Assembly: GCA_027365525.1 (NCBI GenBank)
Contig: DAHXMJ010000021.1
Location: 1 to 36,632, forward strand
DNA: 36,632 nt
Direction of reading: 5' to 3'
DNA from: Acidithiobacillus sp.
Lineage (GTDB): Bacteria; Pseudomonadota; Gammaproteobacteria; Acidithiobacillales; Acidithiobacillaceae
In this document: one piece after another, positions 3,145 through 18,704 of the stretch
How the letters are laid out: every line of letters begins with the position of its first letter
Numbering within the stretch: the first letter of the stretch is position 1
The notes under the pieces: generated by a model
Told to the model about the DNA's origin: nothing
What the model saw: only the letters and a program-made list of their open reading frames with translations
Database searches by the model: none
Program-made: the position numbers and the translations under genes

Positions 3145-3630
3145 ATGGGAAAACCCGTTCGATTCTCCCGGCCCGACGCGGCCAAATACATCCGGGCCGC
3201 CGGAAAAAGGGCCACGCCATTTCGCGTCCAGGTCCTGCAGGTCCTGCTGGAGGTGGGACACCCTATCAGCCATCTGGAAGTCCAGGAACGGATGGCGGAC
3301 AGAGATACAGGGCCTGTCGACCGCGTTACCCTCTACCGTAACCTGGAATGGCTGGTCCAGCAGGGCCTAGCCCACAGGATTACCGCAGACGACCGGATCT
3401 GGCGTTTCAGCGCGGCCCGGGTAAACCATCCGGCCCATCCGCACTTCCACTGTTTGAGCTGTGGGCAAATTCTCTGCCTTCCCAAATCCCGTCTTCCCTC
3501 ACCTGAACTGCCAGAAAATTATGCCGTGCAGGATGTCGAAATGGTGGTCAACGGGATCTGTCCCGGCTGTCAGACCACCACGGGTTCCAAGTCTCCTGCT
3601 GTGGGCAACCTTGGGAGTAACACAGGGTAA
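3145..3630 (+). CDS. Fur-family metalloregulator
   Basis: A 161-aa DNA-binding repressor of the Fur/Zur/PerR superfamily. The N-terminal winged helix runs to about residue 85, with the recognition-helix region VDRVTLYRNLEWL. The C-terminal part holds the metal/dimer motifs: HPHFHCLSCG, supplying His ligands and the first CxxC, and a second CxxC, CPGC, near residue 139. The structural zinc site is therefore intact. Whether it senses Fe, Zn or peroxide cannot be told from sequence alone. It is divergent from the peroxiredoxin bcp across 129 bp, which makes an oxidative-stress role plausible but unproven. No clear SD precedes the ATG. Confidence 0.88.
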   Translation: MGKPVRFSRPDAAKYIRAAGKRATPFRVQVLQVLLEVGHPISHLEVQERMADRDTGPVDRVTLYRNLEWLVQQGLAHRITADDRIWRFSAARVNHPAHPHFHCLSCGQILCLPKSRLPSPELPENYAVQDVEMVVNGICPGCQTTTGSKSPAVGNLGSNTG

Positions 3631-4057
3631 CCCATTGCCACTCGGTATCACGGGGGCGAGCGATAGGGCGTCCAGCTGCCGCAATGGTCAAAATGCAGCA
3701 GGCGGAAACAGGGAAGCACTGCAGGGGCACCGGAAATACCACAAAGGCATTTTCCCGTCCGCGGGTTCCCGCGTACCAGAACCGCTGTCAGCCATGTCCG
3801 CCAGTACGCAAGCTTTCAGGGGAAACAGTAGACCACCGGACGTGAAGGGACAGGGACGCCAGGCACGTCCCAAACGGGCAGAAATCTGTGGAGGGACAAA
3901 ACGGTAGTCCTGGCCATTCCCAAGGGCTTCCACAAGGGCCATGGCGGCATGGAGCAGGGGCTGTCCACGGGACTTAACAGCAGGAACCCTCCAGCCAGAA
4001 GAGCCAGAGTCTCCCATGCACCCCGCAGGAAGACTGCATGAAAAGGGGCTATGCCGT
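3631..4057. other. 427-bp stretch without a convincing gene
   Basis: This lies between the stop of the Fur-family gene (plus) and the stop of the CbbY-like gene (minus), so both flanking genes point into it. I see no clear rho-independent terminator, tRNA, repeat or recognisable protein on either strand. The only sizeable minus-strand frames are a 109-codon one (listed separately) and a 92-codon one that begins inside the phosphatase gene. It may be a degraded gene or untranslated 3' sequence. Confidence 0.5.
3688..4017 (-). CDS. Doubtful 109-codon ORF of unknown nature
   Basis: An open frame downstream of the CbbY-like gene in the same direction, with a GGGG about 8 nt before its ATG. I recognise no domain, signal peptide or membrane helix. 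By hand count about 56% of third codon positions are G or C, which looks weak for this GC-rich neighbourhood. It could be a small lineage-specific gene, a decayed gene or chance. Confidence 0.15.
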   Translation of the reverse strand: MGDSGSSGWRVPAVKSRGQPLLHAAMALVEALGNGQDYRFVPPQISARLGRAWRPCPFTSGGLLFPLKACVLADMADSGSGTREPADGKMPLWYFRCPCSASLFPPAAF

Positions 4058-4831
4058 TCAGCCTGGGAACGGGGTTCCTGGCCCGGCCATCCACTGGCGA
4101 AGCAGGGAAAGGTCCACTACCACCTGGGCACCAGTTTCCTCACCCTGGACAATCTGGGCCATGTCCCCAGGATCCCCAAGACTGCTAAGGACACGAAGGG
4201 CACCCTGGAAATCCTGGTTTTCGGTGTATTCCGTCCGGGTCACCAGCACCTGCAGGCCAGCCCCGAGAGCCGAACGCAGACCATTGTTCGAATCCTCGAT
4301 AGCCACGCAGTCCGCCGGGTCCAGACCAAGTCTTCCTAGCACATGGACATAGATGTCAGGCGCTGGTTTCTTGTGTTTCACAATGCCTCCGGCACCAATA
4401 CAGGAAAAACGTTCCTCCGCACCCGGGCCCAGGGTAGTACGGAGCAGCGTGGAAACATTCTCGGGCGTGGTAGTGGTCGCAATGGCGGCCTGGATCCCTG
4501 ATGCCGCCATCTCATCCAGCAGGCGCAGGACCCCTGGGCGGAGAGAAAGGCGGCCGCTACGGACCATTTCTACGTAGAAATCTGTCTTTCGCCGGTGAAT
4601 GCGGGCGATATCCGCGTCACTGAGCTGCGGTTGGTGAGGATGATCATCCAGAAACTCCCGCATCCGCTCCTGCCCGCCTGTCACCCGCAGGTACTCGCCG
4701 TACGTCGGAATATCCCATGAAAAAGGCAGGCCTGCCTCCCGGAAGGCCTCGTTGAAGGCGACACGGTGGGCATCCCGTTCCGTATCCGCCAGGGTTCCAT
4801 CCACATCAAAAATGACTGCCTGCAGGGACAT
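4058..4831 (-). CDS. cbbY: HAD-superfamily phosphatase, CbbY type
   Basis: A 257-aa haloacid-dehalogenase hydrolase. Motif I is FDVDGTLADTE (nucleophile D9, acid/base D11), followed by a helical cap. Motif II lies in AIATTTTPENVS, motif III lysine in KHKKPAPDIY, and motif IV is AIEDSNNG. The cap segment FNEAFREAGLPFSWD and TGGQERMREFL closely resembles CbbY of autotrophs, which removes the Rubisco inhibitor xylulose-1,5-bisphosphate. That substrate is inferred from resemblance. No rubisco genes lie in this window. The ATG at 4831 has GGAG 8 nt upstream and gives the normal HAD N-terminus; an in-frame ATG at 4894 adds 21 unlikely residues. It is divergent from dksA. Confidence 0.85.
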   Translation of the reverse strand: MSLQAVIFDVDGTLADTERDAHRVAFNEAFREAGLPFSWDIPTYGEYLRVTGGQERMREFLDDHPHQPQLSDADIARIHRRKTDFYVEMVRSGRLSLRPGVLRLLDEMAASGIQAAIATTTTPENVSTLLRTTLGPGAEERFSCIGAGGIVKHKKPAPDIYVHVLGRLGLDPADCVAIEDSNNGLRSALGAGLQVLVTRTEYTENQDFQGALRVLSSLGDPGDMAQIVQGEETGAQVVVDLSLLRQWMAGPGTPFPG

Positions 4832-4904
4832 TAGGTGCACTCCCGGAATGGTCTGGTAGCCTCGTTTCTGCCATCCCGCTTTCCGGCATGGCACGCGCTG
4901 GGGA

Positions 4905-4934
4905 ATTTAACCACAGGTACCCATAAATTGCCAA
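4905..4934 (-). promoter_or_regulatory. Candidate promoter for the CbbY-like gene
   Basis: Minus strand: TTGGCA (4934-4929), an 18-bp spacer, then TTAAAT (4910-4905). The -35 hexamer lies on top of the plus-strand -35 of the dksA promoter, so the two promoters are back to back. Confidence 0.35.
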
Positions 4935-4956
4935 AGCCGGGGAAATCTGCTAAATG
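4928..4956 (+). promoter_or_regulatory. Candidate sigma70 promoter for dksA-pyrC
   Basis: TTGCCA (4928-4933), a 17-bp spacer, then TAAATG (4951-4956). Transcription would begin near 4963, after the upstream in-frame ATG at 4954. This supports translation from the ATG at 4990. Confidence 0.4.
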
Positions 4957-4989
4957 TTAGGGTTATTTATCGGAACCAGGAAGCCATCC

Positions 4990-5454
4990 ATGACGGAAAG
5001 CACCCCGACCACCAAGCCCGGACCTGCCGGAACCACCCAGCAGTTCAGTGCCTTTACCCCCTACAAACAGGCCCCTGGGGAAGCCTACATGAGCCCGGGC
5101 CAGGTATCCCATTTCCGCAAGATTCTGGAAGACTGGCGGAATGAGCTCATGGCCGAGGTTGACCGCACTGTACAGAACATGCAGGTGGAAAACGTCAACT
5201 ATTCGGATCCGAACGACCGCGCCAGTCTCGAAACTGACATTGGCCTTGAACTGCGGGCACGGGACCGCGAGCGCAAGCTCATCCGCAAGATCAACCAGGC
5301 CCTGGGCCGTATTGATGCTGGCGAGTACGGATACTGCGAGTCCTGCGGCGTGGAAATCGGCCTGCGACGTCTGGAAGCCCGTCCCACAGCAACCCTCTGC
5401 ATCGACTGCAAGACCCTGGAAGAAAAGCGCGAAAAACAGATGGCGCAAGAGTAG
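4990..5454 (+). CDS. dksA: RNA polymerase-binding transcription factor DksA
   Basis: A 154-aa secondary-channel factor that works with ppGpp to tune rRNA and amino-acid promoters. The coiled-coil tip carries D73-P-N-D76-R-A-S, matching the E. coli DPVDRA tip aspartates. The following helix contains LELRARDRERKLIRKI. The zinc finger uses C116, C119, C137 and C140 (CESCG and CIDC). The N-terminus is Thr/Pro-rich and variable. I chose the ATG at 4990, with AGGA upstream. The ATG at 4954 falls inside a likely -10 element. The gene is followed 2 nt later by the dihydroorotase gene, so the two are probably cotranscribed. Confidence 0.96.
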   Translation: MTESTPTTKPGPAGTTQQFSAFTPYKQAPGEAYMSPGQVSHFRKILEDWRNELMAEVDRTVQNMQVENVNYSDPNDRASLETDIGLELRARDRERKLIRKINQALGRIDAGEYGYCESCGVEIGLRRLEARPTATLCIDCKTLEEKREKQMAQE

Positions 5455-5456
5455 GG

Positions 5457-6809
5457 ATGCGTCTTCTCATCCGCAACGCCCGGATCGCACTGCCATCGGG
5501 GGAACTTTATCTTGGAGACCTGCTGGCCACGGGCGGAAAGATTGCGACTATCGACCGGGAGATTGACCAGCCCGCAGATGAAGTCCTTGATGCCCACGGG
5601 CATGTCCTCCTGCCCGGGGTCATGGATCCCCAAGTCCATTTCCGGGAACCCGGGAACGAACACAAGGAGGATCTGGGCAGCGGATCGCGTGCAGCGGCAA
5701 AGGGAGGCGTTACCAGCTTTCTCGAAATGCCCAATACCAGCCCTCCGACCATCAATGCCGTGGCCATGGCAGACAAGCTCGCCCGGGCGGCGGAAAAATC
5801 CGTGGTCAACTACGGGTTTTTTATTGGCGCCACACCGGACAATCTTGACGATCTTGTCACCGACACCCTCGCCTGTGGCATCAAGATTTTTATGGGGGCC
5901 AGCACGGGAAACCTGCTGGTGGACCGCGAGGAAGATCTTGAAAACATCTTCGCCCACGGTTCTAGTCTTATCGCTGTGCATGCAGAAGATGAGGCCAGAA
6001 TCCGCTGCCGGCAGCAGGAGTTTGCCGGCAGCTGTGACCCGGCCAGCCACAGCCGGATTCGTGATGGAGAGAGCGCCTTTCTGGCAACTCGCCGCGCCGT
6101 TGGGCTGTCCCTGAAATACAGGCGCCGTCTCCATGTGCTGCACCTGTCTACTGGCCGCGAAATGCGCTACATTGCCATGCACAAGCAGCCTTTCATCTCC
6201 TGCGAGGCCCTGCCCAATCACCTGTTCCTGAATACCGATGCCTACGCCAGGTCCGGTGCCCTGGTCCAGATGAACCCGCCCATCCGCAGTGAGGAAGACC
6301 GTCTTGCACTTTGGGAAGGCCTCCGCAGCGGCGTCATTGACTGCATTGCAACCGATCACGCACCCCACCGCCTCGAAGAAAAGGCCCTGGGTTATCCCCG
6401 TGCCCCCTCAGGCATGCCTGGCGTCGAAACCAGCCTTCCACTCATGCTCACGGCCATGCGCGACGGCCACTGCAGCCTGGCCGAACTCCAGCGCTGGATG
6501 TGCTATAACCCTGCCCGGCTCTATGGAGTCAAAAACAAGGGACGTATTATTCCCGGCTGGGATGCGGACCTGACCCTAGTGGATATGGTGCACGAAAAGC
6601 CGGTCCGGAATGGAGACCTGTTTACCCGGGTGGGATGGAGTCCCTTCTCCGGCTGGATACTGACCGGATGGCCACTGACCACCATTGTGGGCGGCAGGGT
6701 GGTATACCATGAAGGTGAAATCCGCCCAAATGCCCACGGTTCTGCCCTGCAGTTTTCTTCTCCTACACCTCTGGAAGAAGCTGGGGGAAAAGCCACCGGG
6801 TCAGCCTGA
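5457..6809 (+). CDS. pyrC: Dihydroorotase, class I-like, with altered HxH motif
   Basis: A 450-aa amidohydrolase-superfamily enzyme that should interconvert carbamoyl aspartate and dihydroorotate in pyrimidine synthesis. Metal-site motifs are DPQVHFREPG (Q59, H61), KIFMGAST (K143), AVHAEDE (H175), LHLST (H229) and DHAPH (D300). In most dihydroorotases the first motif is HxH; here the first His is Gln. I recall QxH variants in other proteins annotated as dihydroorotase, so activity is not excluded. An inactive PyrC-prime-like subunit is the alternative. The start lies 2 nt after the dksA stop, with AGAGTAGGG as SD. Its 3' end overlaps tilS by 9 bp, tail to tail. Confidence 0.88.
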   Translation: MRLLIRNARIALPSGELYLGDLLATGGKIATIDREIDQPADEVLDAHGHVLLPGVMDPQVHFREPGNEHKEDLGSGSRAAAKGGVTSFLEMPNTSPPTINAVAMADKLARAAEKSVVNYGFFIGATPDNLDDLVTDTLACGIKIFMGASTGNLLVDREEDLENIFAHGSSLIAVHAEDEARIRCRQQEFAGSCDPASHSRIRDGESAFLATRRAVGLSLKYRRRLHVLHLSTGREMRYIAMHKQPFISCEALPNHLFLNTDAYARSGALVQMNPPIRSEEDRLALWEGLRSGVIDCIATDHAPHRLEEKALGYPRAPSGMPGVETSLPLMLTAMRDGHCSLAELQRWMCYNPARLYGVKNKGRIIPGWDADLTLVDMVHEKPVRNGDLFTRVGWSPFSGWILTGWPLTTIVGGRVVYHEGEIRPNAHGSALQFSSPTPLEEAGGKATGSA

Positions 6810-8189
6810 GGAAGAGCGGAGCCAGAGCCATAGACCCGGCCCTCCGGGATGCCCCCTTGCCCATGGGGCAGTATAGAAACCAAGGATCAGGACCAGACGC
6901 CCTTCCGGATCCCACAGGAGCGGTACCGAGTCGCGCAGAAAAGGAGGGACGCCGGCCTCTAGCAGCAGTTTCTTCACCGGACGGTGCCGACCGTTCCCGT
7001 CTATGTAGCTCTCCCCTGGGCATCGACTCCGCCAGTGCAGCAGGTGGGGAAGAGCCAGGGGATTCAGATGGTGGGCCCCCGGAGACGGGGCCGGTCCGGG
7101 AGGCAGGGTACCCCGGTCCACTTCCCAGGCAAAAAATCCTCCCACCCCGCTGTCACCACTGCGTGCCCAGTCCTGGCTGGAGAACTCCGGAAATGCGGAC
7201 GCTGCATGCCAGAGCCAGAGCCTACCCCCCTGGAGCCAAGCCTGTCCTCCCTTCCACTCGATGCACCGCCCTCCCCGGCCGTCACCGAGGTGCAGGCGGA
7301 GACGTTCCAGAGCTGCCCGTTCGGGAACGGCAACCCCCTGGTACCGGATCCAGTGGCGCAGGAAAACCCGCAGGACGGCCGGTTCCATCTCCAGCAGGAA
7401 AGCCACCGGAAGACCAGGGCGGGGGCGGCCTGCCTCGATCCCTGGAAAGCGCCGCCGGAGACCGGCAAGGCGGTCCACAAACCACCAGGATTCCGTCTGG
7501 AGCGCATCACCCAGGTTTTCTGCGGTGCGGGCCAGGACCCGGGATGCCTGGGTCCATCCCAAGGCTTCCAGGCGGGGCAGCAGGTCCCTGCGGATCCGGG
7601 TACGGGCAAAACGATCCTCCTGGTTGGCGGGATCTTCCCGCCAGGGAATGCCAAGCGCACGGAGATAGGCGCGCAAGTCCTCCCGCCCCAGATCAAGGAA
7701 GGGCCGGGCGAGGGTTCCGGCTCCCAGGGGGCGGAGGGACGGCATGGCAGCCAGACCTTCCAGACCGGAACCCCTGAGGAGCTGCAGCAGAAGGGTTTCT
7801 GCCTGGTCATCCCGGTGCTGTGCAACGAGCAGGAAATCCCCTGGACGGAGCCGGGAGGAAAGCAGGGCGTAGCGCCCCCGCCGCGCAGCGTCCTCAGGGC
7901 CCTCTCCCTCCGGCGTGCCTTCCAGCCGCAGCACGGTGCAGGGTACTCCCAGGCCTTCCGCCACCCGCCGGCACTCTTCGGCCCAGAGGGCACTTCCGGA
8001 GTGCCAGCCGTGATCCACATGTATGGCCTGGACCGGCTGGCCTATGCGGTGGAGCGCATGGAGCAGAGCGGTGGAATCCGCACCTCCGCTGTATGCAGCC
8101 CACAGGGGGCGCTGGGGCGGAAGCTCCCATTCCTCCCGGAGTTTTTTCCGGAGATGGTTCTCGAGATCAGGCGGCGCCAACGACGCCAT
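6801..8189 (-). CDS. tilS: tRNA(Ile)-lysidine synthase
   Basis: Uses ATP and lysine to convert C34 of the CAU-anticodon tRNA-Ile to lysidine, making it read AUA; this is an essential function. It has 462 aa against about 430 in E. coli. The N-terminal PP-loop is SGGADS at residues 34-39, followed by [10 protein letters not shown] and a C-terminal substrate-binding part. It overlaps the accA 3' end by 23 bp. I chose the ATG at 8189; an in-frame ATG at 8207 adds six residues (MSALCT). Neither has a strong SD, which suggests coupling to accA. It is the last gene of the long envelope/replication cluster and meets pyrC tail to tail. Confidence 0.92.
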
Positions 8190-12619: not shown

Positions 12620-13193
12620 GGCCCATTCTCCCTGTCCGTGCGACCGGTCCAAAATCCCTCCGGTGAAATGGCGTGGGCCCATAACGTCCAAGGGCCTCCA
12701 CATGACGGGCCGTCGGATAGCCGCTGTGCGCGGCAAACCCATACAACGGATAGTGCCTGTCCAGAATCCGCATCTCCCGGTCACGGGCCACCTTGGCCAG
12801 AATGCTGGCCGCAGCAATGGCATCAATGATGCCATCACCCTGGATGACTGGTTCGGCCTTCCAGTGGGGCAGAACCCGGTTTCCATCCACCAGAATCCGG
12901 GCCGGCCGACAGGGCAGGTGCGCGAGGGCGCGATCCATGGCCCGCAGGGTGGCATGCAGGATATTGTAGCGCGCAATTTCCCATGTCCCCGCAGAGACGA
13001 TGGCCCAGGCCAGTGCCTCCTCCCGGATTTTCTGGGCCAAGGCTTCCCGCCGGATGGGCGCCAGTTTTTTTGAGTCCCTGAGGCCTGGCAGTGGCCGCGA
13101 CAGCACGACTGCAGCTACAGTCACCGGCCCGGCCAGCGGCCCCCTACCCGCCTCGTCCACACCCGCCACCCCAGGACCCAGATGCTCAAGCAC
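12609..13193 (-). CDS. rnhB: Ribonuclease HII
   Basis: Removes RNA from RNA-DNA hybrids and initiates excision of misincorporated ribonucleotides. The catalytic signature is GVDEAGRGPLAGPV, with a second acidic residue in LRDSKKLA and later aspartates in ILVDGN and AIAAASILAKVARDR. With the GTG start at 13193 the protein is 194 aa, matching E. coli (198). That GTG has GGGAG 9 nt upstream and overlaps the lpxB stop by 8 bp. The longer ATG at 13259 would overlap lpxB by 74 bp and add a basic, non-conserved tail, so I rejected it. Confidence 0.95.
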   Translation of the reverse strand: MLEHLGPGVAGVDEAGRGPLAGPVTVAAVVLSRPLPGLRDSKKLAPIRREALAQKIREEALAWAIVSAGTWEIARYNILHATLRAMDRALAHLPCRPARILVDGNRVLPHWKAEPVIQGDGIIDAIAAASILAKVARDREMRILDRHYPLYGFAAHSGYPTARHVEALGRYGPTPFHRRDFGPVARTGRMGHGT

Positions 13194-14331
13194 CGGCCGG
13201 TTCTCCCAGGAGGATCTGCCGCAGGCCCTGGGCAACTGCTTCCTCCGAATCACCCTCAAGCAGGGCCCGCAGGGAACGTAGCGCCTTCACCTGCGAATCG
13301 CCCTCACCCTGAAGCAGCTCCTCGAGCAGGGCGGCGATCTGGCCGGGGTCGACCTCCTCCTGGAGCAGTTCCGGGTAGATGCGCCGGCCAAGAAGCAGGT
13401 TGGGGAGGGCCACGAAGGGAACCCGGACCAGCCAGCGTGCCACGCGGTAGGTCAGGGCCTGCATGGCATAGACTACCACAGCTGGCCGGGCCATGAGTGC
13501 CGTTTCCAGAGTGGCGGTCCCTGAAGCGACCACTACGAGGTTGGCAGCAGCCAGCACATCCGTACTCCGCCCTGCCACCTGGACGATTCCGGCTCCGGCC
13601 GGTCCGGCACACTCAAGCCACTGGTCCGCCAGTTCTTCCCGGGCCAGGGCGACGACAGTACACAGGTCTGGGTGGCGCTGGCGCAGCCTCACGGCCGCCT
13701 CGGCCATGGGCCGGGCGAGCCGGGCAATCTCGCTACGCCGGCTGCCGGGTAACAAGGCCAGTACCGGACCTTCTGCCGGCAGTCGCAGTGCCTGCCGGGC
13801 AGCCTCCCGCTCCGCGGCCGCAGCCGTTGCGGCGAGAAGTGGATGGGGCAGCACCTGGGCTGGGATCCCGGCCTCGGCGTAGATGGGGCGCTCAAAAGGA
13901 AACAGCAGAAACATCCGGTCCACTACTTCCCGGATCCTGTGAATCCGGTGCTGCCTCCAGGCCCATATCTGGGGTCCAACAATATACAGGACCCGGATTC
14001 CAAGCCTTTTGGCCTCACGAGCCACCCGTAAATTGAAGGCAGGGTGGTCGACCAGTACCACAGCATCCGGACGCTCCTGGTTCAGATAACGGACAACCTG
14101 GCTGTACAGCCGCCGCAGGGCGCCATAGTGGCGCAGGACTTCCACCAGGCCCATAACCGCCAGTACTTCCCCATCCGCCACCTCCTTTACTCCTGCGGCG
14201 GCAAGACGTGGCCCCACAATTCCACTCCACTGCGCGGTAATTCCGGCCCGGGCACAGCGCTCGAGTATGTCTATGCCAAGGGTTTCCCCGGAGCGTTCCA
14301 CGGCCACCAGAAACACCCGGGGCACAGCCAT
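13186..14331 (-). CDS. lpxB: Lipid-A-disaccharide synthase
   Basis: A GT19 glycosyltransferase condensing UDP-2,3-diacyl-sugar with lipid X to form the beta-1,6 disaccharide of lipid A, acting at the inner face of the cytoplasmic membrane. It has 381 aa. Conserved parts include PQIWAWRQHRIHRI, LLPGSRRSEIARL, VASGTATLE and LPNLLLGR. The usual N-terminal AGEASGD motif reads AVERSGE (residues 10-16). The DAPDFN motif reads DHPAFN, with the key aspartate kept at D95. In this operon its substrates probably carry a 3-amide rather than a 3-ester. Its ATG overlaps the gnnB stop (TGATG); no independent SD is visible. Confidence 0.94.
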   Translation of the reverse strand: MAVPRVFLVAVERSGETLGIDILERCARAGITAQWSGIVGPRLAAAGVKEVADGEVLAVMGLVEVLRHYGALRRLYSQVVRYLNQERPDAVVLVDHPAFNLRVAREAKRLGIRVLYIVGPQIWAWRQHRIHRIREVVDRMFLLFPFERPIYAEAGIPAQVLPHPLLAATAAAAEREAARQALRLPAEGPVLALLPGSRRSEIARLARPMAEAAVRLRQRHPDLCTVVALAREELADQWLECAGPAGAGIVQVAGRSTDVLAAANLVVVASGTATLETALMARPAVVVYAMQALTYRVARWLVRVPFVALPNLLLGRRIYPELLQEEVDPGQIAALLEELLQGEGDSQVKALRSLRALLEGDSEEAVAQGLRQILLGEPAGA

Positions 14332-15440
14332 CAGACCGCCAGATGCTGCCGGATGACGCTGGCGATGTGCTCGACCTGCTCCTCCCGTAGCTCCGGAAAC
14401 ATGGGCAGGGAAAGAACGTTTCCGCTCAGGAAGTCCGATATCGGACAGGAGGCCGGAGGCAGATCGGCGAAGGCGCGCTGCCGGTGACCCGGGATAGGAT
14501 AGTAAATGGCGCTGGCAATTCCGGCAGCCTGCAGGGCCACACGCAGTCTGTCCCGATCCCGGATCTGGAGGGTGTACTGGTGAAAAACATGCCCATAACC
14601 TTCCCGCCGTGGGGGGAGAACCAGGTCAAGATCTCCAAGGGCAGCGTCGTACAGGGCGGCAGCCCGCTGGCGTCCGGCAGTATATTCCTGGATCTGCGGC
14701 AGCAGACGGCACAGTATCAGGGCTTGGATTTCGTCCAGCCTGCTGTTGTAACCCAACACGTCATGGTGATAGGTTTTCCAGGATCCGTGGTTGCGCAGTC
14801 CCCGCAGCCGTTCCGCGAGATCACCGCTGCTGGTGACAACCATCCCACCGTCACCGGCCCCCCCTAGGTTCTTGCTTGGAAAGAAGGAAAAACAGCCCAG
14901 CTGTCCAAAGCTGCCCACCGGCCTGTCCCCTATGGTGGCTCCAATGGCCTGGGCACAGTCTTCCACCACAAGAAGCCCTTTCTCTTGTGCAAGGGCCATG
15001 AGGTCGTCCATCGGGGCTGGAAGACCGTAGAGATGGACCGGAATGATCGCCCGGGTCCGGGAGGTCATAGCCGCCTCTACCCCCTCGGGTGTGAGGGTGT
15101 AGTACCGGGGGTCAACATCCACAAACACCGGCGTGGCCCCCACATACCGTACGGCCTCTGCCGTCGCGATAAACGTAAAAGAGGGAACAATGACCTCGTC
15201 TCCCGGACCGATTTCGAGGGCCCGCAGTGCCAGCATCAGAGCGTCAGTTCCGGAGGCGCAGCCAATGCCATGCGCGGTCCCAGACAGGGTGGAAACCCTG
15301 CTTTCCAGTGCTCGCCCCTGTTCGCCCAGGATGAAGCTCGCCTGGTCGAGAATCTGGCCAATACCCTGCAGAATCGACTCGCGCAGGGGAGCAAAATGGC
15401 TGCGGAGATCCACCATGGGGATGGGTGAAGCTGATGGCAT
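14331..15440 (-). CDS. gnnB: UDP-GlcNAc3N transaminase GnnB (DegT/DnrJ/EryC1 family)
   Basis: A PLP enzyme, 369 aa, of the sugar aminotransferase family. D161 (VVEDCAQ) should bind the pyridine nitrogen and K190 (FPSKNLGG) is the Schiff-base lysine; GTDALMLAL contacts the phosphate. On its own it could be any sugar-nucleotide aminotransferase. Its place after gnnA and between lpxA and lpxB matches the A. ferrooxidans GnnB described by the Raetz group, which aminates 3-keto-UDP-GlcNAc with glutamate to give UDP-GlcNAc3N. The ATG at 15440 has a perfect AGGAGG 8 nt upstream, the best SD in this stretch, so it may be translated strongly. It lies 30 bp after gnnA. Confidence 0.88.
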   Translation of the reverse strand: MPSASPIPMVDLRSHFAPLRESILQGIGQILDQASFILGEQGRALESRVSTLSGTAHGIGCASGTDALMLALRALEIGPGDEVIVPSFTFIATAEAVRYVGATPVFVDVDPRYYTLTPEGVEAAMTSRTRAIIPVHLYGLPAPMDDLMALAQEKGLLVVEDCAQAIGATIGDRPVGSFGQLGCFSFFPSKNLGGAGDGGMVVTSSGDLAERLRGLRNHGSWKTYHHDVLGYNSRLDEIQALILCRLLPQIQEYTAGRQRAAALYDAALGDLDLVLPPRREGYGHVFHQYTLQIRDRDRLRVALQAAGIASAIYYPIPGHRQRAFADLPPASCPISDFLSGNVLSLPMFPELREEQVEHIASVIRQHLAV

Positions 15441-15470
15441 GGAATTTTCCTCCTGGAGGACACTAGGGGT

Positions 15471-16415
15471 TCAGGCTGGATGGAGAAAAGAGTCAACCGC
15501 GCGGCGCACGTCCAGGGCTGCCGCAAGCGCTTCCCGGCCGGCGGAGGCATCGCAAAGGATATCCCCCTCTCCAAGGACAGCAGCCAAAAAGGCCTGGATT
15601 TCCACTTCAAGGGCATCTGTACGGGGCAGATCCACCACGTCCCCGACCACACCCGGAATGCCTGGGACCGCCCCCGGGCCATGGCGGTAGAAAGTCAGCC
15701 GGTTCTGCAGGAAGTCCACCGAGGCATACCGGTCCTCCCAAAAAAGGCGCATGCGTCGTACCGGCTCGCGGACAGCACGGGATACGGCCAGATTCGCGAC
15801 GCTGCCGCTGTCGAGAGTAATCCAGGCGTTAGCCATGTCAGCCTGTGTCGTCACTGCTGCGACTCCCACAGCACGGATATCCCGGGGTCGGCAGCCTGTC
15901 AGCATCATCACCAGGTCAAGGTCATGAATCATGAGATCCATGATCACGTCCACATCCAGGGAACGGGGCTTGAAGGGAGCCAGACGTTCACCTTCTAGGT
16001 AGCGGGGGGGGCCGAATTCCTGGGTGCGCAGGTACTGCATAACCGGCTGCGCGCGCTCGATATGGCCGACCGCCAGCACACATCCCTGGTCACGGGCCAG
16101 CCGTATCAGTGCATCTGCTTCCTGGAGATCCAGGGTGAACGGCTTTTCCACCAGACAGTGGACCCGCTGCTCCAGGGCTTCCCGTGTCACCCCATAATGG
16201 GTAGAGGTTGGTGTGACCACTGAAATGGCATCCACCTCGGAAAACAGCGCCTCCGGCGATGAAAAAACCCGGCAGCCAAGTTCGGCAGCCACGTCCTGGG
16301 CACGGGAGACATCGGAATCGTAAATGCCCTGGAAGGCCGAGCAGCCGGCGTATTTCTGGGCGTGGAAACGGCCAAGGTGTCCGGCGCCAATCACGCCTGT
16401 ACGCAGATTTCTCAT
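15471..16415 (-). CDS. gnnA: UDP-GlcNAc 3-dehydrogenase GnnA (Gfo/Idh/MocA family)
   Basis: A 314-aa NAD-dependent oxidoreductase. The N-terminal Rossmann fold has VIGAGHLGRFHA (GxGxxG at 10-15), the family EKPF motif (residues 90-93) and a C-terminal sugar-binding alpha/beta domain with MDLMIHDLD. In A. ferrooxidans the gene at this position oxidises the 3-OH of UDP-GlcNAc for GnnB to aminate; I infer the same here from context and family. The ATG at 16415 overlaps the lpxA stop (ATGA). GGAGG lies upstream with a somewhat long 12-nt spacer. An in-frame ATG at 16484 would extend into lpxA and is rejected. Confidence 0.87.
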   Translation of the reverse strand: MRNLRTGVIGAGHLGRFHAQKYAGCSAFQGIYDSDVSRAQDVAAELGCRVFSSPEALFSEVDAISVVTPTSTHYGVTREALEQRVHCLVEKPFTLDLQEADALIRLARDQGCVLAVGHIERAQPVMQYLRTQEFGPPRYLEGERLAPFKPRSLDVDVIMDLMIHDLDLVMMLTGCRPRDIRAVGVAAVTTQADMANAWITLDSGSVANLAVSRAVREPVRRMRLFWEDRYASVDFLQNRLTFYRHGPGAVPGIPGVVGDVVDLPRTDALEVEIQAFLAAVLGEGDILCDASAGREALAAALDVRRAVDSFLHPA

Positions 16416-17194
16416 GGTCGTGTAATTCCCCTCCGGCTGGCACGGATGAAGGACAGCAGGCTCTCTACCTCCGGGGTATTCCAACCCCGCCGTACAACCT
16501 CATCCATGGCTTCCTCCAGCCGCAGGCCGGAGCGGAACAGCAGCCGGTAGGTCCGCTTGATCTGGGTGATGGTATCCCGGGAAAATCCCCGTCTGGCAAG
16601 ACCGCGGACATTGATGCCGTGCAGGCTTGCGTGGTTTCCGGCGGCCATCATGTAGGGAGGAACGTCCAGGGGCGCCATCGTTCCTCCGCCCAGGATCGCA
16701 TGGGCTCCCACACGGGCGAACTGGTGGACCGCAGACAGGCCGCCAAGAATGGCATCGTCTTCTACCGACACGTGCCCAGCCAGGGTGGCGGCGTTGGCCA
16801 TCACGACCCGGCTGCCGATCTGGCAATCGTGGGCCACGTGGCAGTAGGCCATGAAGAGGTTATGGTCCCCAATCCGGGTGACGCCACCCCCCTTGACGGT
16901 TCCGCGGTTGATGGTAACAAATTCGCGAAAGGTGTTGTGGCTGCCAATCCGAAGTTCTGTGGGCTCCCCGCAATAGCCGAGGTCCTGCGGAGCCGTACCA
17001 ATGGAGGCGAAAGGAAAAATGCGGTTGGCCTCTGCCATATGGCATGGGCCCTGGACCACGGCATGGGCTCCCACCTCGCAGCCCGGGCCAAGCACGACAT
17101 CCGCCCCGATAACGGCAAAAGGTCCGATTACGCAGCCTGCGCCGATCTGTGCCCCCTCCTCTACCGCAGCCCGGGGGTCAATCCCGGCACTCAT
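16412..17194 (-). CDS. lpxA: UDP-GlcNAc/GlcNAc3N acyltransferase LpxA
   Basis: First committed acylation of lipid A: transfers an R-3-hydroxyacyl chain from ACP to position 3 of the sugar nucleotide. It has 260 aa, made of left-handed beta-helix hexapeptide repeats plus a C-terminal helical part (RRGFSRDTITQIKR). The catalytic base is H122 in CHVAHDC, with H119 beside it. The chain-length ruler glycine of E. coli (G173) is kept as G170, which suggests long acyl chains of about C14. Next to gnnA/gnnB it is expected to acylate the 3-amino group of UDP-GlcNAc3N. The ATG overlaps the fabZ stop (ATGA). Confidence 0.96.
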   Translation of the reverse strand: MSAGIDPRAAVEEGAQIGAGCVIGPFAVIGADVVLGPGCEVGAHAVVQGPCHMAEANRIFPFASIGTAPQDLGYCGEPTELRIGSHNTFREFVTINRGTVKGGGVTRIGDHNLFMAYCHVAHDCQIGSRVVMANAATLAGHVSVEDDAILGGLSAVHQFARVGAHAILGGGTMAPLDVPPYMMAAGNHASLHGINVRGLARRGFSRDTITQIKRTYRLLFRSGLRLEEAMDEVVRRGWNTPEVESLLSFIRASRRGITRP

Positions 17195-17637
17195 GCATCA
17201 CGCTCCCGCAGGGTGGCCATCAGCAGGGCGGAAGCCACCTCGGTACCGTCCACCATGGCAACAGTTTCCATCTGCCACATGCCAGCTTTTCTCCGGGCGA
17301 CCTTTGCGGTCAGCAGAAGGCTGTCCCCGGGAATTACAGGCTTGCGGAACCTGGCCTTGTCAATGCCGGCAAAATATACGGCAGCGTTTTCGCCGTACTT
17401 GTCCTCAGACACAAACGCGAGAATGGCAGCGGCCTGGGCGAGAGATTCGACAATCAGCACCCCCGGCATCACCGGAAACCCCGGAAAATGACCCTGAAAA
17501 TGGGGTTCATTCATGGTGACATTCTTGACAGCCTGCAGGCTCCGGCCCGGTTCAAGCTCCAGAATCCGGTCCACAAGCAGAAAAGGATAGCGGTGGGGCA
17601 GCCGTCTGAGAATTTCGTGTATGTCAAAACCTTCCAT
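17191..17637 (-). CDS. fabZ: 3-hydroxyacyl-ACP dehydratase FabZ
   Basis: Dehydrates 3-hydroxyacyl-ACP in type II fatty-acid synthesis and competes with LpxA and LpxD for 3-hydroxyacyl-ACP, which explains its place in this cluster. It is a 148-aa hot-dog protein with catalytic H50 (GHFPGFPVMPG) and E64 (IVESLAQ), as in the family. GAGGAG lies 11 nt before the ATG. The ATG overlaps the lpxD stop by one base (TGATG). Length and motifs are typical. Confidence 0.97.
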   Translation of the reverse strand: MEGFDIHEILRRLPHRYPFLLVDRILELEPGRSLQAVKNVTMNEPHFQGHFPGFPVMPGVLIVESLAQAAAILAFVSEDKYGENAAVYFAGIDKARFRKPVIPGDSLLLTAKVARRKAGMWQMETVAMVDGTEVASALLMATLRERDA

Positions 17638-18704
17638 CAGTTTTCGGACTCCTCGTCTGCCGGTGGGGGGAACTGTGCCAAGTGTTCGCAGCGCTGGAGC
17701 CGCTGAGCCATGCGGTCGAGACCGTTCAGGCGTGCGACCATCCGCCGCCATTTCCGCGCTTCTTGGGCCGGTATGACCCCCGAATAGACGCCGGCCTGGC
17801 GGAGATCGTGGGTGATGGCACTCTGGCCGGCAATCACGGTACCATCTGCGATCCGCAGATGCCCCGCAAAACCAACCTGGCCGCCAATCCGGCAGTGCGC
17901 GCCAATCCAGGTGCTGCCAGCAATCCCTGTCTGGCCCGCAATCACGGTATGGGGACCGATGTGGACGTTGTGACCGACCTGAACCAGGTTGTCAATCTTG
18001 ACGCCTTCCCCAATGAGGGTATCGTCCAGGACCCCGCGGTCAATGCAGGTATTGGCACCAATTTCCACATTATTGCCGAGGATAGTCCGCCCGGCATGGG
18101 GAATCTTTACATAACTGCCACTTTCTGGCGCAAATCCGAAGCCGTCTGAACCAATCACTGCATTGGCGTGCACGATGCAGTTACGGCCTATGATGCTGCG
18201 GGCATAAACTTTCACTCCGGGGTAGAGGTGGCTGCCACTGCCAATGCAGGCATGACGGCCAACCACGGTACCAGACTCCAGCCAGACTCCAGCACCGATT
18301 CTGGCGCCACTGTCTACCCGGACAAAGGCCTCAACTCGGGCCCCTGGATCAATTTCGGCATCCGGGGCAATCTCGGCCTGGGGAGACCGGTATCCACAAT
18401 CGGGGACTTCTGGAGGGTGGAACAGCTGCATGGCCCGGGCAAAACTGGCATAGGGATTGGGACTGACCAGACAGTTTCCCGAAAAGGCACCAGCTGCCTC
18501 CTGCGGGAGGATGACAGCCCCGGCGGCAGATCTGGCCAGCAGACTGGCCAGTCGGGGGTCCTGGAAAAATGCGAGATGGCAGGCTTCCGCCCGTTCGAGG
18601 GGAGCAATCCCGGAAATAGCTACTAGGGGGTCTCCCCGAAGCTCAAGTCCAAGGAGTTCAGCAAGCCTGTCCAGACGGACGGGGACGGGTTCCGTAAGGG
18701 CCAT
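17637..18704 (-). CDS. lpxD: UDP-3-O(N)-acyl-glucosamine N-acyltransferase LpxD
   Basis: Adds the second 3-hydroxyacyl chain, at N-2, in lipid A synthesis. It has 355 aa. An N-terminal uridine-binding domain (to about residue 105) precedes the hexapeptide-repeat beta-helix. The catalytic His is H245 in VGHNVHIG, and the second conserved His lies in FAGHLRIAD. The C-terminus has the usual helical tail (VYSGVIPAQEARKWRR). The start at 18704 has AGGTGAGCA just upstream, with AGGAGG further back. It sits 3 bp after skp. In the Gnn pathway its acceptor carries a 3-amide. Confidence 0.96.
   Translation of the reverse strand: MALTEPVPVRLDRLAELLGLELRGDPLVAISGIAPLERAEACHLAFFQDPRLASLLARSAAGAVILPQEAAGAFSGNCLVSPNPYASFARAMQLFHPPEVPDCGYRSPQAEIAPDAEIDPGARVEAFVRVDSGARIGAGVWLESGTVVGRHACIGSGSHLYPGVKVYARSIIGRNCIVHANAVIGSDGFGFAPESGSYVKIPHAGRTILGNNVEIGANTCIDRGVLDDTLIGEGVKIDNLVQVGHNVHIGPHTVIAGQTGIAGSTWIGAHCRIGGQVGFAGHLRIADGTVIAGQSAITHDLRQAGVYSGVIPAQEARKWRRMVARLNGLDRMAQRLQRCEHLAQFPPPADEESEN

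Follow-up and report, generated by a model that had tools for sequence, protein, structure and literature searches.

The window analysed here is the whole 36,632-nucleotide stretch of contig DAHXMJ010000021.1 (assembly GCA_027365525.1), in which gnnA and gnnB lie between lpxA and lpxB in a lipid A operon. With a probability of about 0.9, the sequence points to an operon for the 2,3-diamino-2,3-dideoxyglucose (GlcN3N) lipid A of the Acidithiobacillus ferrooxidans type, in which LpxA would prefer an amine acceptor and all four primary acyl chains would be amides. By homology, GnnA would oxidize the 3-OH group of UDP-N-acetylglucosamine (UDP-GlcNAc) with NAD+, and GnnB would transaminate the 3-keto product to produce the 3-amino sugar nucleotide UDP-GlcNAc3N. 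LpxA is predicted to transfer the 3-hydroxyacyl chain to the 3-amine, with a preference or a requirement for the amine, because the sugar-contacting lysine of the Escherichia coli enzyme (Lys76) is missing and its place is taken by Gly73. LpxD would supply the second amide and LpxB would couple two such units, so that all four primary chains would be amide-linked. An earlier note on this DNA had predicted UDP-GlcNAc3N and an amide-linked 3-acyl chain, and homology, conservation of the operon, the finding of a single LpxA and an LpxA residue common with Leptospira all argue for this prediction. The operon is a system of an already known kind, and the window adds one more genus to those in which this lipid A variant is known. 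The window genome (G000) is a metagenome-assembled genome (MAG) of 1.37 Mb and 62% completeness, and probably represents an Igneacidithiobacillus-like species of the Acidithiobacillaceae, its GnnA being 92% identical to that of MAG YF4.bin20, the nearest named relative.

GnnA of the window aligns with PDB entry 7bvj, which we take to come from A. ferrooxidans, with 441.7 bits and 64% identity across 309 residues. No NCBIfam model named GnnA or GnnB matches the window proteins. Among these models, GnnA scores best against one for archaeal UDP-GlcNAc 3-dehydrogenases, with 142.6 bits, under the cut-off of 450. A FastTree phylogeny with Shimodaira–Hasegawa-like support was built from 139 GnnA rows, namely 137 of 138 loci, the window and 7bvj, the labels of the last two being assigned by hand; one locus, by listing the partial L058, fell below the score limit. 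An EKP motif (residues 90-92) and His164 are invariant in all 139 rows, and we take the lysine of EKP and the conserved histidine to have the roles of Gfo/Idh/MocA motifs. GnnA of the window falls in a group of 26 rows with branch support 100, which consists of Acidithiobacillales rows and G150, has lpx genes and gnnB alongside, and contains 7bvj next to A. ferruginosus. The earlier note had set grouping with A. ferrooxidans enzymes against grouping with O-antigen sugar pathways, and GnnA groups with the A. ferrooxidans-type enzyme 7bvj in a tree whose rows included no characterised O-antigen dehydrogenases. GnnB is a DegT-family aminotransferase dependent on pyridoxal phosphate (PLP) and adjoins gnnA. 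In G000, GnnA was found once at E ≤ 1e-20 and GnnB once at E ≤ 1e-90. The gnnA-gnnB lipid A genes of A. ferrooxidans were reportedly described by Sweet, Ribeiro and Raetz in 2004. The function of gnnA and gnnB and the cases of Campylobacter jejuni, Capnocytophaga canimorsus, Phyllobacterium and Granulibacter are known from passages of the citing literature.

The operon is conserved in the order. A GnnA match (E ≤ 1e-20) is present in 42 of 57 genomes, the window genome included. gnnA directly follows lpxA in all 30 Acidithiobacillales loci (window included); gnnB comes next in 29 of them and lpxB is seen in 27, the missing genes being cut off by contig ends. An apparently broken gnnB in Candidatus I. 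taiwanensis, which gave two separate matches, was dismissed because stretches of N in the assembly account for the gaps. In G012, an Acidithiobacillaceae genome of 71% completeness, no GnnA and no LpxA passed the limits applied. This conservation bears on the possibility that GnnA and GnnB act for another glycan, such as an O-antigen or capsule amino sugar, and sit in the operon only incidentally. The wider families do include such enzymes, and the nearest solved relatives of GnnB are 7b0d (353 bits) and entries for WbpE (up to 292 bits), presumably an O-antigen enzyme. In other lineages, moreover, the stretches that were read show gnnA-gnnB pairs apart from lpx genes. However, the lpxA-gnnA-gnnB-lpxB order is kept across the Acidithiobacillales, GnnA of the window belongs to the lpx-linked group with 7bvj in a tree without characterised O-antigen dehydrogenases, and the LpxA residue change described below tracks gnnA. 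A role in another glycan is thus very improbable.

LpxA of the window aligns with E. coli LpxA in such a way that Gly73 occupies the Lys76 site, Asn96 the His99 site, His122 that of the catalytic His125 and Gly170 that of the acyl-chain ruler Gly173. The His99-to-Asn change was rejected as a mark of the acceptor, because many gnnA-negative genomes have Asn there. A methionine presumed at the Gly173 chain-length site was dropped, since after numbering the residue proved to be Gly. Gly is present at the Lys76 site in all 28 Acidithiobacillaceae genomes read (29 were searched, G012 having no LpxA), and Lys in both genomes of the sister family within the order. LpxA of Leptospira interrogans (3hsq) also aligns with Gly at this site, and that of Burkholderia thailandensis (4eqy) with Lys. 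E. coli LpxA takes UDP-GlcNAc and UDP-GlcNAc3N without discrimination. A table in PMC7072397 lists Gly71 for L. interrogans LpxA and Lys for Helicobacter pylori and Acinetobacter baumannii, and passages of two further sources place E. coli Lys76 at 3.0 Å from the ring oxygen of glucosamine (PMC6286764) and give it as essential (PMC4322802). Those passages of the literature on Lys76 and Gly71 that were examined do not link the residue to an amine acceptor. The paper on the structure of Leptospira LpxA may well discuss such a link, and no priority is claimed. A search for E. coli lpxA by DNA similarity gave no match. The Gly that the window shares with Leptospira at this site is a correlate of amine acceptor use and not a proof, and we propose that loss of Lys76 marks, and possibly causes, amine selectivity of LpxA.

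The association between loss of Lys76 and gnnA was analysed in 143 genomes of the class with differing family codes, in which 57, the window included, have a GnnA relative at E ≤ 1e-35. LpxA was read in 136 of them, namely all 57 gnnA-positive genomes and 79 of the 86 gnnA-negative ones; the seven left out comprise four with no LpxA match and three outside the listed set. At least one LpxA copy lacks Lys76 in 39 of the 57 gnnA-positive genomes versus 5 of the 79 gnnA-negative ones (Fisher p 6.5e-15 with genomes treated as independent). G129, one of the five gnnA-negative exceptions, is 67% complete, and its LpxA clusters with two rows that lack Lys and are gnnA-positive, so that gnnA may simply be missing from this genome. 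Two LpxA genes are present in 19 of 57 gnnA-positive genomes versus 1 of 86 gnnA-negative ones (p 4.3e-8), and that one, G149, has 6% contamination. Loss of Lys76 is not required for coexistence with gnnA and is rare without gnnA in the class sample. This pattern fits, without proving, a non-discriminating ancestral LpxA, like that of E. coli, with amine-only descendants.

It is a serious possibility, short of a probable one, that the residue change is lineage noise or follows another trait, such as acyl chain length, and has no bearing on amide selectivity. Several results argue for more than noise. In all 15 gnnA-positive two-LpxA genomes readable at the site (of 19), one copy has Lys and the other does not. 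In an LpxA tree built without the residue-76 column, a paralogue clade (LpxA') contains 16 rows, every one of which lacks Lys and comes from a gnnA-positive genome. A profile from 7 of these 16 proteins finds Leptospira LpxA as the top solved structure, with 329 bits versus 294 for E. coli. Parsimony on the same tree requires 18 changes of residue 76, so the loss is not that of a single lineage.

Other results weigh against an amine-preferring LpxA and an all-amide lipid A, and several of them favour the noise explanation. Treating genomes as independent overstates the association between Lys76 and gnnA. A random-pairing test over the whole tree gives a mean of 9.0 pairs in which the non-Lys side is gnnA-positive, 1.1 opposite pairs and 7.9 ties, with a median p of 0.021 (range 0.006-0.29), which is of modest significance; restriction to well-supported branches leaves 4 pairs, and the independent-pairs test is then not significant. 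In scans of about 260 LpxA columns, residue 76 ranks first when all copies are used, but is second to Gln104 in two of the three scans, the one without the paralogue clade and the one in single-LpxA genomes. No non-Lys copy was seen in 18 of the 57 gnnA-positive genomes, and the five gnnA-negative genomes without Lys76 count in the same direction. Twelve gnnA-positive genomes were also reached via named loci for a survey outside the class, although its Azoarcus, Endozoicomonas, Granulosicoccaceae and Burkholderiales members may belong to the class of the window; one gave no LpxA. All eight with a single LpxA keep Lys76 (three Bacteroidota and one each of Acidobacteriota, Zixibacteria, Omnitrophota, Azoarcus and Endozoicomonas). 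The three with two or three LpxAs comprise two that pair Lys with non-Lys and one with Lys throughout. Among seven more delta-type or Oligoflexia loci with lpxA near gnnA, Lys76 is lost in two. The biochemistry of A. ferrooxidans gnnA and gnnB is taken from passages of citing papers and from general background. G008, another Acidithiobacillaceae genome, has two LpxAs, and further gene copies could be missing from G000 because this MAG is 62% complete. Finally, the presence of gnnA and gnnB need not mean that all chains are amides, since passages on C. canimorsus describe a hybrid backbone.

Three side observations concern the same proteins. In L238 (G057), 3151-6953, the order is lpxA-gnnA-lpxA'-lpxB, and lpxA', which encodes a further LpxA with Ser in place of Lys76, occupies the position that gnnB has in the window. 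Gln104 (E. coli numbering), the commonest residue in gnnA-negatives, is kept in 4 of 40 gnnA-positive versus 54 of 78 gnnA-negative single-copy LpxAs, a contrast that exceeds that of Lys76 among single-copy LpxAs. The second LpxA of G008 (L149, 321-1187) has Thr at the Lys76 site, is 45% identical to LpxA of the window, and adjoins other large open reading frames (ORFs) on a contig different from that of its lpx operon.

A mixed lipid A, in which LpxA takes both UDP-GlcNAc and UDP-GlcNAc3N and the sugar pools set the ratio of esters to amides, is unlikely in the window organism. It would agree with the non-discriminating E. coli enzyme and with the sister family, which has the same operon yet keeps Lys76. 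The GlcN3N-GlcN hybrid described for C. canimorsus, which has gnnA and gnnB, points the same way. However, the passages on C. canimorsus report two lpxA genes, whereas one LpxA each was found in G000, itself 62% complete, and in G001-G007, six of the last seven being at least 91% complete. LpxA of the window, moreover, resembles the Leptospira enzyme in carrying Gly where E. coli has Lys76.

A broader reading, to which we give somewhat less than an even chance, is that loss of Lys76 is a recurrent convergent switch to an amine-selective LpxA, which occurred once in the LpxA' clade and many times elsewhere, mostly together with gnnA. In the Acidithiobacillales, the operon would be older than acidophily and Gly would have been fixed on the acidophilic branch, possibly with a change from mixed to all-amide lipid A. 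If this is true, residue 76 would be of use in telling from a sequence whether lipid A is of the ester, hybrid or all-amide kind. The LpxA result matters more than the operon: the choice between a hydroxyl and an amine sugar becomes testable through one residue, and genomes might serve to predict the linkage of lipid A.

The earlier note had explained the amide-linked lipid A by its resistance to acid in very acidic habitats. Since acid hydrolysis also affects amide and glycosidic bonds, "resistant to acid" is loose. The ecological rationale does not hold either. Two of the 30 Acidithiobacillales loci belong to another family of this order and have the same operon, and GnnA relatives occur in lineages with marine, lake and sediment record titles; acid adaptation was accordingly rejected as the origin of gnnA and gnnB. 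Leptospira, whose lipid A is fully amide-linked, is not an acidophile. The named families of the order at NCBI are Acidithiobacillaceae and Thermithiobacillaceae, and the sister family is most likely that of the neutrophilic Thermithiobacillus. A passage of PMC5037610 gives pH 5.2-8.0 with an optimum of 6.8 for Thermithiobacillus tepidarius, and PMC8886135 traces the class to a neutrophilic ancestral origin, without using the term gnnA or lpx in its main text. Because the sister family, most likely neutrophilic, has the same operon, the gnnA-gnnB operon most likely predates acidophily. It was retained in every genome of the order with a readable region, most likely a neutrophilic sister family among them, and acid life is thus probably not its source.

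The earlier note had also stated that most Gram-negatives have nothing between lpxA and lpxB. This is true of the majority, but 57 of the 143 class genomes have a GnnA relative, and in at least 33 of these 57 (window included) lpxA or lpxB lies on the same 3-16 kb stretch; the lpxB gene of G041 lies some 4 kb from gnnA. The gene order of the window recurs outside the Acidithiobacillales in G131 and G165, and also in G150, where about 0.8 kb intervenes after lpxA. Other layouts in the class are gnnA-gnnB-lpxB and gnnA-lpxB without gnnB. In L093, L094, L095, L110 and L150, gnnA-gnnB-lpxB stands tail to tail with lpxD-fabZ-lpxA (lpxD was not seen in L094), so that the pair sits with lpxB and not with lpxA. 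Beyond the class, gnnA adjoins lpxB without gnnB in many Desulfobulbaceae-type and Omnitrophota loci. In the delta-type, Omnitrophota and Oligoflexia loci L059, L063-L067, L069, L071-L075, L077-L080 and L105-L107, a GnnA-like gene precedes lpxB, and gnnB was not found on the stretch. In L059, L077 and L078, about 0.9 kb separates lpxA from gnnA, an interval that we presume may hold lpxI. The Endozoicomonas loci L070, L085, L089, L100, L101 and L104 have gnnA-gnnB, and neither lpxA nor lpxB was found on the stretch. An unlinked GnnB-like gene (E ≤ 1e-40) is present in all 10 genomes chosen for a lone lpx-linked gnnA. This link is suggestive only, because 6 of 14 gnnA-negative control genomes also have such a gene at the same threshold, and a GnnB-like transaminase was set aside as a weak mark of the pathway.

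In the window, the ORF list and family profiles place lpxD, fabZ, lpxA, gnnA, gnnB and lpxB in a single minus-strand run (Table 1). The ORF of fabZ as listed reaches 17751, and homology begins just past an in-frame ATG at 17637; the listed ORF of gnnA extends to a TTG at 16484, and its ATG is at 16415. The stop codon of lpxA and the start codon of gnnA share ATGA, the spacing between gnnA and gnnB is 30 bases, and the stop codon of gnnB and the start codon of lpxB share TGATG. Direct reading of the sequence confirms the coordinates, the overlapping ends and the Shine-Dalgarno motif of gnnB that had been described earlier.

Table 1 Features of the lipid A operon in the window, in the order of transcription
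Feature	Position	Strand	Evidence and assignment
lpxD	17637..18704	-	TIGR01853 above cut-off; same run, upstream of lpxA
fabZ	17191..17637	-	NF000582 and TIGR01750 above cut-off; same run, upstream of lpxA
lpxA	16412..17194	-	TIGR01852 and NF003657 above cut-off; ungapped alignment to E. coli LpxA; predicted UDP-GlcNAc/GlcNAc3N acyltransferase
gnnA	15471..16415	-	314 residues; PF01408 and PF22725; predicted NAD-dependent UDP-GlcNAc 3-dehydrogenase, Gfo/Idh/MocA oxidoreductase
Shine-Dalgarno AGGAGG	15449..15454	-	8 bases upstream of the gnnB ATG (sequence read)
gnnB	14331..15440	-	369 residues; PF01041, 376.5 bits; PLP-dependent DegT-family aminotransferase, predicted amination of the 3-keto sugar
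lpxB	13186..14331	-	TIGR00215, 265.4 bits, above cut-off; PF02684; lipid A disaccharide synthase

The operon of the window shares its two enzyme families with gnnA-gnnB of A. ferrooxidans, the 64% identity of GnnA to 7bvj included, and has the same gene order as the named Acidithiobacillus loci over the part that their contigs cover. It comes from another genus and from a MAG; otherwise no difference from A. ferrooxidans was found. C. canimorsus and the window both have GlcN3N genes, but, according to the passages available, C. canimorsus combines lpxA and lpxA' with a hybrid backbone, whereas one lpxA was found in the window genome. In Leptospira, all primary chains of lipid A are amide-linked in the 31 species examined, as stated in a passage of PMC10248169. 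LpxA of the window and of L. interrogans (3hsq) both have Gly in place of E. coli Lys76. However, LpxA of the window is closer to the E. coli enzyme (284.6 bits) than to 3hsq (168.8 bits), and has Asn and Arg at the E. coli His99 and Glu200 sites, where the Leptospira enzyme has His and Val. These differences suggest that Gly arose in the two proteins by convergent change.

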